Part shown: positions 44,253 to 52,297 of the stretch, piece after piece
Layout: every line of letters begins with the position of its first letter
Position numbering within the stretch: position 1 is the stretch's first letter
DNA from: a virus
Virus record (IMG/VR): IMGVR_UViG_3300024518_002836
Span: 1 to 64,000 of that record
DNA length: 64,000 nucleotides
Reading direction: 5' to 3' (one strand)
Made by a program: the position numbers and the translations under genes
The notes under the pieces: model-generated
What the model saw: the letters and a program-made list of their open reading frames with translations, nothing else
The model's database searches: none
What the model was told of the DNA's origin: nothing

Positions 44253-44759
44253 TAAAATCACCTTTATTTTTCAAATTTTGGGCTGTAATTTATGAGGGAC
44301 TAGCAAAATCTTTTTTGGGCTATTGATTCTATTTCCAGGATAAGGATACATTGATTCAACTAAGGATGAACATAACTAGGGGTATTGTTTGTTTGTAATG
44401 GTCTAGATTAGTGGGCCAAAGTATCGTTAAAGTATAGTATGAGAGTAACATTAACCTAAGCGATGTTATACTAGAATATGAGTTAACTTAGGACGAAATC
44501 ATCATAGGAGGCATTAGGTATTAAGATGGCGGTTGAACGGGTAAGGTTTCTTTCGTTCATTTTGACAATTAGCCTAATTAGCCAATTAATTTCTTTTGAT
44601 TTAAAAATCGGTGCAAAGCATATGGTTGGGTTAAATACTCCAATCCGTTATCCAACCATATGGAATTAAGTGGCAGAGAGTCTGCGTAAAGCGGCTTATA
44701 TGGTGATGCTAAAATATAAGACGTAGCAGCGTCTGACACTGCCTTCCTTAAGGCTAAAG

Positions 44760-44867
44760 ATACGCTATTCGCGTATTTGCTACGCAACCATATGGTAAGT
44801 TGTTTGTGAACTATAATGAAATGAGAGAGTGAAACGTGAAGTTCGTAAGTATATGCGAATAGCATAT
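44760..44867. repeat. Repeat unit 1: two GAATA-loop hairpins around CCATATGG
   Basis: Hairpin ATACGC(TATTC)GCGTAT at 44,760-44,776 in minus orientation, CCATATGG at 44,788-44,795, then ATATGC(GAATA)GCATAT at 44,851-44,867 in plus orientation. The same head-to-head layout recurs near 48.65 and 49.65 kb. Confidence 0.75.
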
Positions 44868-44959
44868 GATGAAGAAGTTCCCGAGTGTAATTAATATGTG
44901 AACACATTGGGCTGGCTGTTAGGGTTTGGCGGAGTTACCTTATTAGGGGTCATATCTTT

Positions 44960-45011
44960 ATTAAGTATCAGCGTTATAATAACACTAATATCTTATAAAG
45001 GACCATATGGT
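44960..45011. repeat. Direct repeat DR-1 with internal hairpin (copy 1)
   Basis: This 52-bp element is about 88% identical to 49,758-49,810 and both end in AGGACCATATGGT. The arms TATCAGCGTT and AACACTAATA can form a stem with loop ATAAT; differences between the copies preserve pairing on the minus strand. Confidence 0.75.
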
Positions 45012-45073
45012 GGTACTTTGGTACACCCCATTATCAAGGTTAACAAAACCTATCTTATGCGGAGACACAAAAA

Positions 45074-45271
45074 ATGTTCTTTAATCGAAGAATCACAGCC
45101 TTGAATGTTGAATCAACATTCACACTCAAGATTGGGCACGACAGAAACATGAACTTGATTATCAAGGAATTGAGCGTAAAGGCGGATAACGTCGATGACT
45201 TGATTTTGCAGGTAAAGGATGCTTTGGAACAATTCAACGCCATGAAGGTTGAACAAATGCTAGGTGAATAA
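45074..45271 (+). CDS. Small beta/alpha protein
   Basis: A 65-residue protein with two strands (ITALNVESTFTLKIGHD, MNLIIKELSVKA) and a helix (VDDLILQVKDALEQFNAM). ATG follows GGAGACACAAAAA. First gene of a short rightward operon. Unknown function. Confidence 0.65.
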   Translation: MFFNRRITALNVESTFTLKIGHDRNMNLIIKELSVKADNVDDLILQVKDALEQFNAMKVEQMLGE

Positions 45272-45272
45272 G

Positions 45273-45413
45273 ATGATATGCAATCACATGAATTACACAG
45301 AATCAGCGCACGAACGAGCATGGAACCCAATGACAGGTATTGTTGAATTTCGATTCATTCAAATCTGCCTAGATTGTGGCAAACAATGGACTCTTGATAA
45401 TCTGGAGGACTGA
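45273..45413 (+). CDS. Small zinc-binding protein
   Basis: A 46-residue protein MICNHMNYTESAHERAWNP... with C-x2-H near the start and CLDCGKQW near the end, a likely C-H-C-C zinc site. AGGTGA lies 5 nt before the ATG. Resembles small phage zinc-finger proteins with a general Asn-His-Met start. Confidence 0.6.
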   Translation: MICNHMNYTESAHERAWNPMTGIVEFRFIQICLDCGKQWTLDNLED

Positions 45414-45415
45414 AT

Positions 45416-45595
45416 ATGAAGACACACGAAGAAATGCACGAATTGAGCCTAACCGAATTGAAGGACTATATTCAAGGCGTTTGGAGCCATCTTTATGATG
45501 CACAGGCAATCAGAGAGTATCGAGTAAAGATTGGCGAACCGAACCTATTGGCTGCACCGACTGAAGTTGAGTTTGAAGAAGAGGAAGAAGAATGA
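45416..45595 (+). CDS. Small helical protein with acidic tail
   Basis: A 59-residue protein; helix ELSLTELKDYIQGVWSHLYDAQAIREY, then a tail of Glu residues. The tail codons GAG GAA GAA GAA TGA also supply the ribosome site and ATGA overlap for the next gene. Unknown function. Confidence 0.6.
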   Translation: MKTHEEMHELSLTELKDYIQGVWSHLYDAQAIREYRVKIGEPNLLAAPTEVEFEEEEEE

Positions 45596-45681
45596 TTTGT
45601 GGTATTTGTGACGGTTGGATAATAAACACGCATAATTGGTCTGATGAGGAACAATGTGATTGTAAGGAGGAAGAGGAATGA
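45592..45681 (+). CDS. Very small four-Cys protein
   Basis: A 29-residue peptide MICGICDGWIIN...QCDCKEEEE with C-x2-C and C-x-C, a minimal zinc-binding knuckle. ATGA overlaps on both sides support translation. Unknown function. Confidence 0.5.
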   Translation: MICGICDGWIINTHNWSDEEQCDCKEEEE

Positions 45682-45836
45682 ATTATTATGAATTTATGGA
45701 AAGCCCACACCATGCTTTAGATGTTATTGCAGATTTAATACGATTTGAGGCATCACCTGAAGAACAAACCGCATGGCTTAAAGCAGTTATTAAATTAGGA
45801 TTTGTAGAAAACATGGAATTGGAGGAAGAAGAATGA
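45678..45836 (+). CDS. Small helical protein
   Basis: A 52-residue protein: MNYYEFMESPHHALDVIADL, then EEQTAWLKAVIKLGF and a Glu tail. ATGA overlaps with both neighbours. Unknown function. Confidence 0.55.
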   Translation: MNYYEFMESPHHALDVIADLIRFEASPEEQTAWLKAVIKLGFVENMELEEEE

Positions 45837-46021
45837 GTATATTTCAAAGGCAGCATTATGAGGCAATTGCGGAGTGTTGTGGTTACATATCTACCGTAAA
45901 GGGCCGTGAAATGGTCGTTGAGTCAATGATTAAACTGTTTGAGCGGGATAATCCTAACTTCCAACCTGATAGGTTCAGAGAAAGGGTCAAACAATACGCA
46001 GAAGGCATAATTATGCGTTAA
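45833..46021 (+). CDS. Small helical protein
   Basis: A 62-residue protein: a helix with EAIAECCGYISTVKGREMVVESMIK and the segment NPNFQPDRFRERVKQ, as in phage proteins whose end resembles a small DNA-binding helix. Overlaps its upstream gene by 4 nt. Unknown function. Confidence 0.6.
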   Translation: MSIFQRQHYEAIAECCGYISTVKGREMVVESMIKLFERDNPNFQPDRFRERVKQYAEGIIMR

Positions 46022-46037
46022 TAGAAGAGGGAAAGAC

Positions 46038-46163
46038 ATGAATGATTTTTGGATAATATTCTTAGTAACACTCGGTTTACTCGAAATAGTATTTTGGGCA
46101 GCAGCGTGGAGATATGCTAAGAAAGTGTGGCTTAGACTAATGGGGATTTCTCATGGGAAATAG
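46038..46163 (+). CDS. Small membrane protein
   Basis: A 41-residue protein: MNDFWIIFLVTLGLLEIVFW forms one membrane segment, followed by a basic tail (RYAKKVWLRL). GAGGGAAAGAC precedes the ATG. It overlaps the following gene by 11 nt. Confidence 0.55.
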   Translation: MNDFWIIFLVTLGLLEIVFWAAAWRYAKKVWLRLMGISHGK

Positions 46164-46482
46164 AGGTAAACGCAGTAGAGAGCGATGGGTTCCCAGACAG
46201 GAACAAAAGGGCTTAGACAAAATAGAACGACGAAAGATAGCACAGGAAGAAATTGAAGCAGAAGTGAGGAATGCTTTTTATTCAGTCGAAGGTGAATGTC
46301 GTTCATGTGGGTCAAAGGAAAATGTATTGGAAACCGATAAAGTATTAACAGGTGGAAGAAGACATAAATTATGTCAAGAATGTTTAGATTACATACTAAA
46401 AAAAGTGAATAAAAGGAGAGAGTTAAATGTGGAAAGCAGGAACAAAAATGGGAAAGAGCCTAAAAGCACGAACAAGGAGTAA
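46153..46482 (+). CDS. Zinc-binding protein, HNH-like or Zn-finger
   Basis: A 109-residue basic protein. ECRSCGSKENVLETDKV followed by RRHKLCQECLDYI forms a C-x2-C...C-x2-C pattern around 50-80, as in small HNH-type or zinc-finger virus proteins, though no HNH catalytic His is clear. Lys-rich at both ends. Confidence 0.6.
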   Translation: MGNRGKRSRERWVPRQEQKGLDKIERRKIAQEEIEAEVRNAFYSVEGECRSCGSKENVLETDKVLTGGRRHKLCQECLDYILKKVNKRRELNVESRNKNGKEPKSTNKE

Positions 46483-46540
46483 TGCGCTCCGAGAGGAAAG
46501 AAAAAAGCGTTATTTCGCTTCTTTTAAGAAAAAGATTTAA
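46427..46540 (+). CDS. Very small basic peptide
   Basis: A 37-residue peptide MWKAGTKMGKSLKARTRSN... in a different frame, overlapping the end of the zinc protein gene. AGGAGAGAGTTAA precedes its ATG. Almost half of its residues are Lys or Arg. It ends just before a terminator-like hairpin, which supports a real 3' end. Confidence 0.5.
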   Translation: MWKAGTKMGKSLKARTRSNALREERKKRYFASFKKKI

Positions 46541-46548
46541 TTCTTTTT

Positions 46549-46564
46549 CCCTTCGGGGTTTTTA
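46549..46564 (+). terminator. Small UUCG hairpin with T run
   Basis: CCC(TTCG)GGG followed by TTTTTAAT, 10 nt after the end of the small basic peptide gene. Short stem, but the T run fits a terminator or stable 3' end. Confidence 0.5.
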
Positions 46565-46629
46565 ATCCAAAGTATTACCTACCATATGGTAACACTTTGT
46601 TACCCCACTTTAAATCACCTGTTATCCTT

Positions 46630-47050
46630 CTTATTGTCCGTGGATGCAAACATGGACACGTTGTGGCTGAATAATCTCTTTATCAGAGATAAAGCACACG
46701 TCGCAGATTCCGTAGCCGGAACGACTTGAGCCAATCTGGGGAAAGTCAAGAATACTTCGGTATTCGCCTTTTAGCGAGGCCAGCGAAAACTCATAGTAAC
46801 GATATGGGGCGTGGTTGGAAGTAACCCTCGATTCTTTTTGCGCAAATCAAAAGAAACGAGATAGGGAGAAAACTTGAGAGAAGGCGCGTTAATCGGCGCG
46901 TAGCCTCTTCAACACCTACTTATCCCCACGGGATGAAAACAGTAGAAAGGTATCATACTGAGAGCAATTTTGGTCAATAGCGCTACTGAAAGAGTCATGA
47001 ATCTTTCAGATATCTTCGCACCGAATAGACACTTTGATGCAAACCTGTTG
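46630..47050 (+). ncRNA. Candidate large structured non-coding RNA
   Basis: About 400 bases without a convincing gene hold a chain of perfect or near-perfect hairpins: ATCTCT/AGAGAT, TTCCG(TAGC)CGGAA, GACTT/AAGTC, GAATAC(TTCG)GTATTC, GGTT/AACC, TTCTTTT/AAAAGAA, GAAGGC...GCCTCTTC enclosing CGCG/CGCG, and CTGAAAGA/TCTTTCAG. The G+C content is higher than in the flanks. The plus strand is assumed because flanking genes point right; the exact ends are unknown. No known RNA family is recognised (one stretch GGGGAAAGTC recalls RNase P, but other conserved regions are not found). Confidence 0.5.
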
Positions 47051-47207
47051 GATTCCTATCCCTTTCCTGAGAGTGCGTCTAAAAAATGTTTAGGGCAAAT
47101 CCTGAAGAACATTTATCGCTCTCTTCCCCGAAAAGACAAGATACCATCAACAGTCAACAGGCTAAGTAGTGCGGGCTTGAGGAAAAAAAAACAGGAGATG
47201 ACACAAA

Positions 47208-47570
47208 ATGACCAATTTCGTAAATATGACAGCACACCCAATCAACATCATGAATGACAATATGACCATTCCCTTTGTCATTGAACCGAGTGGTGAAGTA
47301 ATTCGTTTGGATGAAGAATGGAGCAACCGCGCTAACGACGAATCTGTTGAATTGAATCTAGAAAATGGTGAAATCTTCAATCTCACAATCATGCATTGCA
47401 AATACACGGCTTCTGGTAATATTCCTGAAAAGGTCGAAGGCACGGTTTACATCGTATCTGCGATGGTTGCAAATGCTTACCCATATCGAGAAGATTTCTT
47501 GATTCCCGCAAAGATGGTAAAGGACCACAATGGCCGCATTCGCGGTTGTCAGGCCCTTGCTCACGTTTAG
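47208..47570 (+). CDS. Conserved phage protein of the NxTxHPIxI family
   Basis: A 120-residue protein. It has FVNMTAHPINIM near the start, PSGEVIRL, then VEGTVYIVSAMVANAYPYREDFLIPA and KDHNGRIRGCQAL at the end. This layout (NLTPHPI, PSG, GTxYIVS, DLLxP, GRIxGC) is shared by many phage hypothetical proteins. Function not established. AGGAGATGACACAAA precedes the ATG. Codons are relatively G/C-rich, unlike its neighbours. Confidence 0.75.
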   Translation: MTNFVNMTAHPINIMNDNMTIPFVIEPSGEVIRLDEEWSNRANDESVELNLENGEIFNLTIMHCKYTASGNIPEKVEGTVYIVSAMVANAYPYREDFLIPAKMVKDHNGRIRGCQALAHV

Positions 47571-47641
47571 TGGGTCAGGGCCCCATTAAAACTCAAAGTT
47601 TTTAAGACCCATATGGTAGCACTTTGGAATAAATAAAATGT

Positions 47642-47694
47642 CCCCGTTCTCACTAACGAACAAATGCTAAGTTTGCTCGAAAGTGAGAATAGGG
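47642..47694. terminator. Two-sided terminator hairpin between convergent genes
   Basis: CCC..TTCTCACT pairs with AGTGAGAA..GGG, and inside it CGAACAAA pairs with TTTGCTCG. The element lies between the convergent genes ending at 47,570 (plus) and 47,713 (minus), so it can serve both strands. Confidence 0.6.
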
Positions 47695-47712
47695 TGGAGA
47701 AGGGAATTACCC

Positions 47713-48366
47713 TCACTCTTCTTCTTCGCCTCCGTCGGCTTCAGAAGATTCCGGCGCTGAAATCACCGGAATATGTCCATTCATGCTACCATCCCAACAA
47801 ATAGCATCGCTATCGCCATTGAGATGATTTCGGTAGTAAGTCGTGAGTCGAGACTTCATGGATTTGAGGAGAGTTGCCTCATATTCCTCCAAATCCTCGT
47901 ATGTTCCACCCCCGGACTTACCATGCTTCCGAACGATTTCACCATAAAGAGGGTCCGTCGCAAAAGGCGCAGCGAACGCTGCTGCATATTGCGCAGAAAT
48001 CGTTTGAATCGCCTGTTGGATTTCGTCGGGTAGGCTGCTTTCGCGGCCGCGCGAAATCGGGCTGTTCGGAAGCATCGCAAAAAGGTTCGTGATATTCGTC
48101 CAGAACCTTTTTCGGTTTTCGGGGTCATTTCGGCCTTGATTGAGATTCCATTCAATCACGGCTTGCATATCGCCTACGTCGTTATTCTCCAAATGAAGGA
48201 GAACCTTATTTTCGTTCTTTGACCATTTCTGGTCATCCATTGAGTAGTCTGCCATTTTCATCATCACATCCATTTGTTCAGTAAGTGGGATTATTCCCTT
48301 CTCCATTAGTAACTTTGGCGTGAGTTTGATAACGGGGAACATTACATTTGCCCAAAGTGCATCCAT
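47713..48366 (-). CDS. Acidic-tailed paralog family protein, copy A
   Basis: A 217-residue protein, the only leftward gene in this region. Residues 70-175 align with the 50,362 gene product: SPISRGRESSLP versus SPVRRGKKSNLP, then KHGKSGGG versus KHAKSGGG, with a matching helix before and after. It ends in Glu-rich EADGGEEEE. The start codon overlaps a CCATATGG palindrome (48,363-48,370), so expression may be controlled there. Function unknown; this family seems linked to the repeat zone. Confidence 0.7.
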   Translation of the reverse strand: MDALWANVMFPVIKLTPKLLMEKGIIPLTEQMDVMMKMADYSMDDQKWSKNENKVLLHLENNDVGDMQAVIEWNLNQGRNDPENRKRFWTNITNLFAMLPNSPISRGRESSLPDEIQQAIQTISAQYAAAFAAPFATDPLYGEIVRKHGKSGGGTYEDLEEYEATLLKSMKSRLTTYYRNHLNGDSDAICWDGSMNGHIPVISAPESSEADGGEEEE

Positions 48367-48370
48367 ATGG

Positions 48371-48823
48371 TTGTGGTAATAATGAAATTATACCTTGACT
48401 GAAAGGAATCCTTAATGAGGCTACTGGTATGTTAATTGTGCTATTCGCCCAATTCTTTTCATACCACCGCCATATGGTAGGAGGTTGTTAATGGTTTAGT
48501 ATATGATAAGGCCGTTAGGCTCATTGATACAAACCTTTAACTTCTGAACTAAGCGTTAGCGGTCCTTAAAAAAATAATTGGGGTAACTTTAACGGGCTAC
48601 GCCCGCAAGTTTGCTTTATCTGCTATTCGCAGATTCACAAATCAGTTACCATATGATTGTGTAACAAGATACGCGAATAGTGTATCGTATCCGTAGAAAA
48701 GAAAAAACTTTATTGGGGATTCGTTCCTCAACCTTAAATTCTTTAAAGGCAACCATATGGTAATGGAACTTTGTGGATTACCCTATAATAGCACAAAAAT
48801 CGTATTTACTGGAGCGAGTGAAA
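48371..48823. other. Intergenic repeat zone, about 450 bp, no gene seen
   Basis: Contains CCATATGG at 48,470 and 48,753, the variant CCATATGA at 48,651, one CTATTCGC half-element at 48,440, repeat unit 2 (48,620-48,686) and AGCGGTCCTTA at 48,553, which recurs at 49,420. It should hold the promoter of the leftward gene starting at 48,366 and of the rightward gene at 48,824. Confidence 0.6.
48620..48686. repeat. Repeat unit 2: two GAATA-loop hairpins around CCATATG
   Basis: Hairpin ATCTGC(TATTC)GCAGAT at 48,620-48,636 in minus orientation, CCATATGA at 48,651, and GATACGC(GAATA)GTGTATC at 48,668-48,686 in plus orientation. The stems differ from those of unit 1 but pair fully (one G-T wobble). 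Confidence 0.75.
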
Positions 48824-49210
48824 ATGAGCAGCGAACGACATGATACACGAAAGACAATGATTGAGGCAATCATCGAGGATAACGAACATCTCTCAGACGA
48901 GAAGAAAGAAGAATTGGCGAACCTCTGGGCAATCCCGGCAAATACCCCGGAAATGCAGAAAGCCATCTGGGACGGCACACGGCAGATTCTGAAGGGCGTC
49001 GAAGGTGTCGATATCAGCATCAATGCGAAAGAGGCCGAGTTTGCCGGAGTCAAGGACTCTATCATTTCTCACCTTCAGGCTGCATATAATGTATGCCCTG
49101 AGTTTTTCCTTCAGCGCGGCGTTAAGGGTGTTTATCTCCCCTATGACGATTCTATCGAAATGCCTAATTCAGTCTGGGATATCTTCATGGGACGACAGAA
49201 GAAGGCCTGA
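48824..49210 (+). CDS. Helical protein, possibly of the same paralog family (copy C)
   Basis: A 128-residue protein. TPEMQKAIWDGTRQILKGVEGVDISI resembles the segment before the S-P motif in the 50,362 product (ERVWDSIKSMIRGLDGSPV). ATG 48824 is 8 nt after GGAGCGAGTG; an upstream in-frame GTG is rejected. Relationship to the paralogs is tentative. Codons are G/C-rich compared with neighbours. Confidence 0.6.
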   Translation: MSSERHDTRKTMIEAIIEDNEHLSDEKKEELANLWAIPANTPEMQKAIWDGTRQILKGVEGVDISINAKEAEFAGVKDSIISHLQAAYNVCPEFFLQRGVKGVYLPYDDSIEMPNSVWDIFMGRQKKA

Positions 49211-49220
49211 CTACACTCAA

Positions 49221-49282
49221 GACCCCCCATACGACCGCAGAAGGGCAAATTGCCCTTCTGTGTGTCAATGGGGTGGTTTTAA
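49221..49282 (+). terminator. Strong rho-independent-like terminator
   Basis: CAGAAGGGCAA/TTGCCCTTCTG at 49,238-49,260 (11 bp) is nested within CCCCCAT/ATGGGGTGG and is followed by TTTTAATTT. It lies right after the stop of the 48,824 gene. Confidence 0.7.
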
Positions 49283-49300
49283 TTTCAAAGTGTAAACCTA

Positions 49301-49365
49301 CCATATGGATAGGAAAATTGAGGTCGGTGAGGCGAATTGACTAAATATGCGAATAGCATATAGTC
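49301..49365 (+). repeat. Repeat unit 3: CCATATGG plus GAATA-loop hairpin
   Basis: CCATATGG at 49,301-49,308 followed by GACTA-ATATGC(GAATA)GCATA-TAGTC at 49,339-49,365, a longer stem with one bulge. Confidence 0.7.
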
Positions 49366-49398
49366 ATTTAGCGTAGCGTGAGCCGTAGACCCGTATTT

Positions 49399-49427
49399 AG
49401 CGAAGCGGTCCGTAAGCGAAGCGGTCC
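49399..49427 (+). repeat. Tandem 13-bp repeat AGCGAAGCGGTCC
   Basis: Two identical copies at 49,399-49,411 and 49,415-49,427 separated by GTA. Part of the motif (AGCGGTCCTTA) also occurs at 48,552. Confidence 0.65.
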
Positions 49428-49516
49428 TTATTTTGGGGTCAATCAGTAGATTCAGTCGAAACAATAATGATTCTTAATGAATGCAGAATCATTACTCCTT
49501 CATCTTATACATGCAA

Positions 49517-49585
49517 CCATATGGTGAGTGGCTGTATTAAGTTATGCGTAGCAAATACGCGAATAGTGTATGGTTAACTTAATAC
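49517..49585 (+). repeat. Repeat unit 4: CCATATGG plus extended hairpin
   Basis: CCATATGG at 49,517-49,524. The outer stem GTATTAAGTTA (49,534-49,544) pairs with TAACTTAATAC (49,575-49,585). The inner part is TGCGTAGCAA then ATACGC(GAATA)GTGTAT. Confidence 0.75.
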
Positions 49586-49616
49586 AATGAACGAATGCCC
49601 AAATTAAGGTTTATTA

Positions 49617-49718
49617 ATATGCTATTCGCATATTAGCCTAAAGGCCCAACCATATGGTTAGTAGGCATTAAACTATTGCGAAGCAAATATGCGAATAGTA
49701 TATGGTATAGTTTAATGC
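49617..49718. repeat. Repeat unit 5: two hairpins around CCATATGG
   Basis: TAATATGC(TATTC)GCATATTA at 49,615-49,635 in minus orientation, CCATATGG at 49,650-49,657, then outer stem GCATTAAACTA (49,665-49,675) with TAGTTTAATGC (49,708-49,718) around TTGCGAAGCAA and ATATGC(GAATA)GTATAT. The outer stem differs in sequence from unit 4 but has the same length. Confidence 0.75.
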
Positions 49719-49757
49719 AATAAGACCTTAAAAAACAATTAAGGTCTAAACACTATT

Positions 49758-49810
49758 ATTAAGTATTAATGTCATAATAACATTAATATCTTATAATAGG
49801 ACCATATGGT
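49758..49810. repeat. Direct repeat DR-1 with internal hairpin (copy 2)
   Basis: Second copy of the 44,960 element. The arms TATTAATGT/ACATTAATA pair perfectly here. Ends with the same AGGACCATATGGT. Confidence 0.75.
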
Positions 49811-50361
49811 TGTTCCTGCGAGAGATGGCCTCTTTTGAGCGGAAAGCCTCTAACCCATCTAAACGCTATACCGAGAGCCACCAAAGAAAACTTACTCGAA
49901 TATGTTGGGTAGTAGGAAAGGGGTCAGCCCAATTGACATATACAATATCCTATACCATAGTGGATAAGATATAAGTATTGAATATAGTTATATTACGGGT
50001 GCGCGCAATTAGATTAGAATAACAGGGTTTTGACTAGGAGGGAGGTGTCACGCGTGACAATGTTCTGGATGAGTTTCAAACGAGTTTCAAAAGAAGGCTA
50101 AAGATTGTAATGGTTGAAAATGAATATAGTATTGAGTGGGCCGTGGTGCCGAAGTGGTGTGATATGGGGCGAAAGTCAGGGGTGCTTTGAATGAGATATT
50201 AGGGTGAACATGAGGCAGAATGTATCAATATCATGTGTATCAATGTAAAGCCTACACCTATTCCTTTATATGGCGTTGCGGTGAACGTGATTATGCCCCG
50301 CAACGGGTATATGATTTAGATAGATGATAATTAAAACACCAAACAATTGAAGGTGAAAAAG

Positions 50362-50850
50362 ATGACAATGGAAGGTTGGCAAGCAAGAACTGAAGAAGTA
50401 GCGGAATTTATCGCAGTAGACGGATTTGATGCACAGTTGCAGCAAGTGGTTCAATTTCAGATTAATTTCGGAAATGAAAACTCTGAGCAGCAAGAGCGCG
50501 TTTGGGACTCAATTAAGAGTATGATTCGCGGATTAGACGGTAGTCCTGTTCGTCGTGGAAAGAAGAGTAATCTTCCGGCAAGCGTGAACGTGGCTATTGC
50601 TCAAGTGAGCAGTGAAGTGGAAGGATTAGCAGCAGACTGGTTTGACCAGAATTCGCTGTTACAGTGTGTTTTACTGAAACACGCTAAGTCTGGTGGTGGA
50701 ATGTTTTCCGATGGTTCGGAATATGGTGCCGCATTAGGCAAGAAGATTGGCACACGTTTAAAGCGAATGTATGCTGAGGAATCATGGAATGGGACTGTTG
50801 AAGGATTAACTTCCACAACGGCTCCGGCCCTTGAAGAAGAGGAAGAGTGA
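50362..50850 (+). CDS. Acidic-tailed paralog family protein, copy B
   Basis: A 162-residue protein whose residues 30-140 align with the leftward 47,713 product (QQVVQFQIN/QAVIEWNLN; DGSPVRRGKKSNLP/NSPISRGRESSLP; KHAKSGGG/KHGKSGGG). It is shorter at the N-terminus and ends ALEEEEE. ATG 50362 follows AAGGTGAAAAAG. Two diverged copies on opposite strands flank the repeat zone. Function unknown. Confidence 0.7.
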   Translation: MTMEGWQARTEEVAEFIAVDGFDAQLQQVVQFQINFGNENSEQQERVWDSIKSMIRGLDGSPVRRGKKSNLPASVNVAIAQVSSEVEGLAADWFDQNSLLQCVLLKHAKSGGGMFSDGSEYGAALGKKIGTRLKRMYAEESWNGTVEGLTSTTAPALEEEEE

Positions 50851-52123: not shown

Positions 52124-52297
52124 GGGCCATTGGCGCAGTTAGGTAGCGCATCGGGCTTTTAAGGGGTTTATCGAATAATAAGGAGAAAATCTTTTCCGTA
52201 CATCGAGATAGTAGTTTCAATTATTTGGTTGTTTCCACTATGAACTTCTTTCCTCGAAGATACCCGATGGTCGTGGGTTCAAATCCCACATGGCCCT
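52124..52297 (+). tRNA. tRNA-Lys(UUU) with intron of about 100 nt
   Basis: Acceptor GGGCCAT/ATGGCCC, D stem GCGC/GCGC, anticodon stem TCGGG/CCCGA, loop C-TTT-AA after U33, T stem GTGGG/CCCAC with TTCAAAT. The intron begins after A37 or A38 (52,161/52,162) and ends at about 52,261; TATC and GATA near its ends can form the central helix of a bulge-helix-bulge. Discriminator base is T, unusual for Lys; CCA is not encoded. Confidence 0.85.

Follow-up and report, generated by a model that had tools for sequence, protein, structure and literature searches.

The virus and its cassette array

The stretch of DNA analyzed here, hereafter called the window, comprises positions 1 to 64,000 of the IMG/VR virus record IMGVR_UViG_3300024518_002836, which extends to 68 kb. 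At positions 44619-49808 the window contains a 5.2-kb array of coding and noncoding cassettes delimited by 14 CATATG sites, with small hairpins at cassette ends. Placed by gene content rather than by phylogeny, the virus is assigned to the magrovirus-type head-tail viruses. The magrovirus-type genes are those for a portal, an SU10-like capsid protein, a tail tube, a TFIIB homologue (TFB), a chaperonin, the RFC small subunit (RFC-s), PolB in two parts, an archaeal primase, an ERCC4 nuclease and an ATP-dependent ligase, in a genome with divergent halves; some of them were seen only in the records of relatives because the window's record ends at 68 kb. The features by which Magrovirales are recognized (tailed-virus module, split PolB, RFC-s, primase, ATP-dependent ligase, TFB, chaperonin and divergent halves) were thus all found. 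This gene content fits the published descriptions of the order (PMC10768690, PMC12999244), the same literature from which Poseidoniales are taken as the magrovirus host, and it agrees with the archaeal virus type that an earlier note, made from the letters of the window, had supposed.

A cassette is taken here as the DNA segment from one CATATG to the next. The cassettes are delimited by ACCATATGGT palindromes, and the site in its full form reads CAAAG-N-CCATATGG-N-CTTTG. Thirteen copies of CCATATGG occur in the window, compared with 0.8 expected, and 12 of them lie within 44656-49809. The GCAAAGCATATGGT of the left boundary was present as a single copy in eight of the nine viruses with an array that were analyzed whole. 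The earlier note had described the hairpins at this locus and missed CCATATGG as a cassette boundary. The boundaries in the window are as follows.

44611-44628, plus strand: left array boundary, GTGCAAAG-CATATG-GTTG
44657-44662: CATATG boundary
44789-44794: CATATG boundary, outward hairpins on both sides
45004-45009: CATATG boundary, CTTTG arm at right
46583-46588: CATATG boundary, CAAAG/CTTTG arms on both sides
47610-47615: CATATG boundary, arms on both sides
48364-48369: CATATG boundary, CAAAG arm at left
48471-48476: CATATG boundary
48650-48655: CATATG boundary (CATATGA), hairpins on both sides
48754-48759: CATATG boundary, CTTTG-loop hairpin GGTAAT..ATTACC at right
49302-49307: CATATG boundary, CAAAG arm at left
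49518-49523: CATATG boundary
49651-49656: CATATG boundary, hairpins on both sides
49803-49808: right terminal CATATG of the array

The array of the window virus (G000 in our numbering of records) sits where the minus-strand structural genes switch to the plus-strand replication genes, and the GC skew changes sign there. This sign change, together with the structured noncoding DNA of the array, would be in keeping with a replication origin whose initiator sites are the palindromes and hairpins. The sites are, however, spread over 3-5 kb with intervening genes in changing order, and the skew here also follows the gene strand; an origin appears improbable.

Arrays in related viruses

Relatives were found by scanning with the hairpin DNA, which gave two viruses with the same pairing of hairpin and CCATATGG, and by protein and site scans, which gave more. 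A single cluster of CATATG sites was present in each of nine whole records covering the region. When a one-arm site pattern was required to match at least three times, it was found in 31 of 50 further magrovirus records and in two of 24 shorter ones, and a control pattern was almost never found. Arrays are therefore present in about 42 related IMG/VR records (the first nine plus 31 and two). The survey as a whole comprised 298 sites in 43 arrays, with 255 cassettes of a median length of about 560 bp. Of 424 internal sides, 362 had an arm; at terminal sites, an arm was present on the inner side in 81 of 86 cases and on the outer side in 22 of 86; at CATATG outside arrays, an arm was seen on four of 282 sides and CCATATGG at two of 141. 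The arms therefore belong to the cassette ends. A search of 84,980 cellular genomes gave, among the matches listed, one contig with an array and otherwise scattered single matches of the kind expected by chance.

That contig (L177, NZTP01000027.1), from an Altibacter/Bacteroidota metagenome-assembled genome, carries an array with genes like those of cassette families c0, c1, c2, c12 and c32 together with the flank gene, and is evidently a misbinned magrovirus contig. One virus record (G031, IMGVR_UViG_3300021958_000021, 184733 bp) is twice the usual size and has two different arrays, at 5.3-9.0 and 99.6-102.4 kb; it probably represents two viruses joined during assembly.

The majority of cassettes hold the gene of one small protein; a number of others are noncoding, with a high degree of structure. 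The tested cassette proteins were without a known family except for one, Kyano_Gp96, which is found in 422 phage records, mostly cyanophages. Forty nucleotide families of cassettes recur among the arrays, in varying order and orientation. The genes in and beside the array of the window are given below.

47208-47570, plus strand: gene of the cassette at 46583-47615, PHROG 30542, function unknown
47713-48249, minus strand: cassette gene of family c6, no Pfam family
48824-49210, plus strand: gene of the cassette at 48754-49307, no Pfam family
50353-50850, plus strand: conserved right-flank gene adjoining the array, paralogue of the c6 cassette family

The nucleotide homologues of c6 are cassettes in three relatives (G003, G005 and G008), where they lie elsewhere in the arrays. 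A scan of viral contigs queried with the c6 cassette protein returned no relatives, and in the INPHARED phage collection, which does not include the two reference magroviruses, no relative was found of the right-flank protein or of one core protein. Families c1, c2, c8, c9, c25 and c30 look like a single protein family (RRGRES.../HGRTGG). The paralogy of the flank gene and c6, together with these alike cassette families, suggests repeated duplication into the array. The array appears to have gone unremarked previously, though it may have been described earlier in the magrovirus literature.

Most noncoding cassettes of the window, taken from CATATG to CATATG, fold better than shuffled sequences on both strands (z down to -7.9), whereas coding controls in the same test were mostly near z=0. 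Segments of 100-220 bp with matching ends, strong structure and a CATATG at each end recall miniature inverted-repeat transposable elements (MITEs), that is, nonautonomous transposons with CATATG terminal repeats inserted side by side at CATATG. All of these segments, however, lie end to end in one locus and share single boundary sites, CCATATGG is nearly absent elsewhere (the two of 141 CATATG outside arrays given above), and unrelated protein genes are flanked by the same boundaries. We regard such insertions as very improbable.

Cassettes are moved and inverted as units

Comparison of closely related records located rearrangements at the sites. The flanks of G055 and G037 are 94.5% identical, and their arrays differ by the position of one cassette, c18: the order is c1 c18 c19 c4 c2 c0 c20 c21 in G055 and c1 c19 c4 c18 c2 c0 c20 c21 in G037. 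This cassette has moved from the c1-c19 junction to the c4-c2 junction, with both of its ends exactly at CATATG. In a further pair (G023 and G025) cassette c37 is inverted, and between G010 and G012 a block, c14-c38, has moved. Among close relatives, 31.7% of rearrangement breakpoints fell within 6 nt of a site, compared with 1.9% of random points, and a site was present within 32 of 40 junction intervals of close pairs; over all pairs, 9.1% of breakpoints were within 5 nt of a site, compared with 1.5%. Each pair entered the count in both directions, so that these figures are not fully independent. Tandem, convergent and divergent junctions numbered 60, 15 and 10, respectively. Single cassettes that had moved or been inverted share only about 10 bp at the junction.

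Hairpins with a constant GAATA loop

The core of the hairpins that the earlier note had described, GCGAATAGY (that is, GCGAATAGC/T), occurs nine times in the window, in every case within 44764-49699 (44.76-49.70 kb). Dinucleotide shuffles gave an expectation of 0.43 per window, and the highest count among 100 shuffles was three. All eight hairpins of the earlier note were present, with stems ATATGC/GCATAT, ATACGC/GCGTAT and ATCTGC/GCAGAT and the G.T variants as it had given them; a ninth, with its core at 48440 on the minus strand and a stem with one G.A mismatch, was missing from its list.

44760-44776, minus strand: GAATA hairpin 1
44851-44867, plus strand: GAATA hairpin 2, stem holds a non-boundary CATATG
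48434-48454, minus strand: GAATA hairpin 3, the ninth one, with the G.A mismatch
48618-48634, minus strand: GAATA hairpin 4
48668-48686, plus strand: GAATA hairpin 5, with a G.T pair
49345-49361, plus strand: GAATA hairpin 6
49534-49585, plus strand: GAATA hairpin 7, 11-bp outer stem GTATTAAGTTA/TAACTTAATAC
49617-49633, minus strand: GAATA hairpin 8
49665-49718, plus strand: GAATA hairpin 9, 11-bp outer stem GCATTAAACTA/TAGTTTAATGC

The two outer stems (49534-49544/49575-49585 and 49665-49675/49708-49718) differ in sequence as described, at three pairs, with both arms changed each time so that pairing is kept.

Covariation was tested formally on 25 GAATA hairpins from three viruses, nine from the window and 16 from the two relatives. 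Paired cells amounted to 92.0%, compared with 74.9% when shuffled, and two-sided changes to 26 cells, compared with 6.0 (0/500 shuffles in both cases); two-sided changes were present at six of the seven stem pairs. The covariation score was 0.518, compared with 0.194 for the shuffled set and 0.139 for the best slid control. The selection on structure that had been argued from the first eight hairpins is thereby borne out. On the GAATA strand the inner six pairs hold six G.U and one A.C, an excess that hints at this strand and that does not distinguish RNA from DNA.

The GAATA hairpins sit in noncoding cassettes of G000, G003 and G005. The further family members expected in relatives thus exist, in two related viruses. 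A covariance model, R1, which the earlier note had recommended as a check, gave confident matches only in the three viruses used to build it, and in addition one marginal match outside the array of a further relative, G010 (L038 18971-18997, E=0.0015 in 0.88 Mb). The GAATA hairpins are accordingly clade-specific, and the array with its CTTTG arms has a far wider distribution. The arrangement of hairpin, CCATATGG and hairpin is also real: 25 of 27 GAATA motifs read inward from the nearest CATATG boundary. One of the two exceptions is a stemless motif inside a gene, and the other, the only genuine hairpin among them, hinges on a CATATG within the stem of another hairpin.

The constant loop and covarying stem, the G.U excess and the strong structure of the noncoding cassettes would also be consistent with leader hairpins of small RNAs that are transcribed from noncoding cassettes and bound by a protein of virus or host, an explanation compatible with the array. 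As RNA, the loop GAAUA would presumably match the type of GNRNA pentaloop known from lambda boxB. Both cassette strands fold about equally well, however, with the CATATG ends included; the hairpins read inward from the boundary as the CTTTG arms do; and a search of Rfam gave no family match at gathering score in the array, the only matches being tRNAs outside it. Such an RNA element is considered unlikely. The earlier proposal, in which small RNAs or stem-loops would serve replication or regulation, was right in that the structure is selected. It was too narrow in that the hairpins stand at the ends of noncoding cassettes, within a family-wide array whose gene cassettes move and invert at CATATG.

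Cassette ends and a possible promoter role

Of the 198 cassettes with an open reading frame, 71, from unrelated gene families, had their ATG 46-54 nt from CATATG; in this class, positions -42 to -38 relative to the ATG hold CTTTG and positions -25 to -21 hold an AT-rich box. In 76 others the ATG lay 80-118 nt from CATATG, and several of these have a GGTGA or GGAGG resembling a Shine-Dalgarno sequence. We infer from these characteristic distances that the 5' end of the cassette also carries a promoter. They also count in favor of an explanation, of the kind proposed for the PeSL modules of T4, in which the cassettes are regulatory modules shuffled incidentally: the palindrome and CTTTG would be sites for a virus transcription factor in front of each small gene, and cassettes would be reordered by ordinary recombination at intergenic repeats, with no dedicated system. 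The viruses encode their own TFIIB homologue, and the same regulatory-module proposal exists for the haloarchaeal tailed virus HGTV-1 (PMC3950731). Several observations count against this explanation. CCATATGG is complete at all 15 convergent (3'-to-3') junctions, usually with both arms, and the palindrome also persists where an array end adjoins the 3' side of a gene. As no promoter is needed at the 3'-to-3' junctions, the palindrome is not a promoter element only. The CAAAG arm at the 3' end is mostly 6 nt from the palindrome, single cassettes have been inverted or moved with only the short junction sequence in common, and the genes in the examined stretch of HGTV-1 have a plain CTTAAGTA box without a palindromic boundary and keep a single orientation over 28 kb. 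We consider this regulatory explanation rather unlikely and prefer the modular array of mobile cassettes.

In the long CTTTG arms, the stem usually begins right after CATATG and encloses CTTTG. Mean pairing in these stems was 5.22, compared with 4.33 for re-dealt arms (z=12.5). The short arm was considered as a mark of the 5' end of the gene and ruled out, as 5' arms tend to be longer. The arms vary in sequence and their pairing is constant, which argues against sequence-specific binding of duplex arms; judged from these sequence comparisons, a folded single strand, of DNA or RNA, appears to be what selection acts on. The GAATA hairpin reads inward as the CTTTG arm does, and appears to be its counterpart in noncoding cassettes.

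Proposed mechanism and search for a recombinase

Based upon these observations, the locus is probably a modular array of mobile cassettes rejoined at palindromic CATATG, with the hairpins as cassette-end elements. We are highly confident of the structural part, namely the cassettes, their boundaries and their movement; we lean slightly toward recombination that is targeted to the site over an incidental process. In a coding cassette, the 5' end would bear the promoter, a small gene (usually a single one) follows, and at the 3' end there is a CAAAG arm, in most cases separated by 6 nt from the palindrome. Whole cassettes change place, are exchanged or are turned round, and they break at the common ACCATATGGT; because this site is symmetric, rejoining would be possible in either orientation. 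The end hairpins, with a constant loop (CTTTG in coding cassettes; GAATA in noncoding ones, in three viruses) and a stem that is variable yet paired, directed inward from the boundary, most likely work as a folded single strand. We favor a role in which they allow cassette ends to be recognized or brought together while the strongly structured cassette recombines or is replicated, and the 5'-end element would have a regulatory role as well. The enzyme may be an unrecognized one or host-encoded, or there may be none if template switching in replication suffices. We propose only tentatively that the system is new and dedicated, such that DNA would be cut and joined again at ACCATATGGT by an unrecognized virus recombinase, or by the virus replication machinery working on folded single strands, with the constant-loop hairpins (CTTTG and GAATA) as structural signals at cassette ends.

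A number of results weigh against the preferred reading of cassettes rejoined at CATATG. The tyrosine recombinase family PF00589 was absent from 11 records, including nine with arrays, with the control positive in 14 of 14 genomes, and the serine recombinase family PF00239 was not found in the virus records searched. The Y1 transposase family PF01797 was absent from 15 records, with a positive control, although an enzyme acting in trans is possible. Published magroviruses are likewise reported to have no integrase or transposase (PMC10768690) or no integrase (PMC12999244). Three large related records (G015, G046 and G048) are without a matching site. In the CTTTG hairpins, the comparison of G.T with A.C mismatches gave no sign of a strand bias. 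Cassettes stand in an identical order in several close relatives, and their movement is therefore infrequent. Finally, promoter repeats could serve for homologous recombination or template switching, which would move cassettes with no dedicated system. Profiles of four conserved unknown proteins compared with the PDB gave nothing usable, and AlphaFold models of two of the conserved unknown proteins (mean pLDDT 73.6 and 80.0) gave no significant fold match.

Comparison with known systems

The closest known systems are the PeSL (promoter and stem-loop) modules of T4-type phages, the HGTV-1 proposal and integron arrays, and the array is best regarded as a case of module shuffling in tailed viruses. 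PeSL modules in T4-type phages were reportedly described as "mobile regulatory cassettes" by Arbiol et al. in 2010. PeSL-like promoter and inverted-repeat motifs in HGTV-1 were attributed to Sencilo et al. 2013 in the account given in PMC3950731. In both, as in the array, small unknown genes of tailed viruses each stand behind a promoter and inverted-repeat module, and the module sequences coincide with shuffling boundaries. Judged by sequence, small genes in this variable region are likewise preceded by a putative promoter together with a stem-loop. Its module is not solely a promoter before genes: unlike in PeSL, the palindrome is at both cassette ends, including 3'-to-3' junctions and array ends, cassettes are inverted, stems covary round fixed loops, and some cassettes are noncoding. 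A 30-kb stretch of HGTV-1 has the plain CTTAAGTA promoter box and no CCATATGG; with its single orientation, this means that the magrovirus array differs from HGTV-1.

Like an integron, the array has single-gene cassettes of variable content and order, its left edge is fixed, and it is rearranged where cassettes meet. The covarying hairpins at cassette ends, of conserved structure and variable sequence, are candidates for a folded recombination site. Unlike an integron, it has no integron integrase (no PF00589 in the 11 records), it holds cassettes in both orientations, most cassettes have promoter-like 5' ends, and a short palindrome takes the place of attC at the boundary. Shufflons of the R64 type and other multiple invertible segments also consist of segments between short repeated sites that are inverted and reordered; here, by contrast, no serine or tyrosine recombinase was found in the records searched, and each segment is a gene in its own right, where a shufflon has variant ends of a single gene. 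REP/RAYT elements and the Y1 systems of IS200/IS605 share with it small imperfect hairpins for which single-strand recognition is conceivable, and differ in that no Y1 transposase was found in the 15 records, the stems vary while the loops are constant, and the array is confined to one locus.

Magroviruses abound in the sea, and their archaeal hosts are uncultured. The conserved island, with its small genes exchanged, relocated and turned round at a defined palindrome, offers a concrete place and sequence at which to test how these viruses acquire and order accessory genes. It also bounds a pool of small genes, among them that of Kyano_Gp96, which hundreds of phage records also contain, and a second pool made up of noncoding cassettes with structure. 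Should a dedicated enzyme be responsible, cassettes would be recombined here by a system that belongs to none of the integrase, invertase and HUH families known so far; were the system new, the viruses would possess a gene-shuffling island that resembles an integron, works in either orientation and does without an integrase.

Other noncoding features

A conserved noncoding stretch at 49809-50340 of the window lies between the array and the flank gene and is also present in L012 (GGCTCTTTTG...AACCCAT...GCCACCAAAGAA); it looks like a structured RNA or a replication element. Two cassettes contain long noncoding stretches, at L012 2200-2720 and at window positions 46600-47200 before the PHROG 30542 gene, which may encode further structured RNA. 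At 52124-52297 the window holds a tRNA with a long insertion, which was matched by Rfam and not by ARAGORN, and which is probably an intron-bearing archaeal tRNA.

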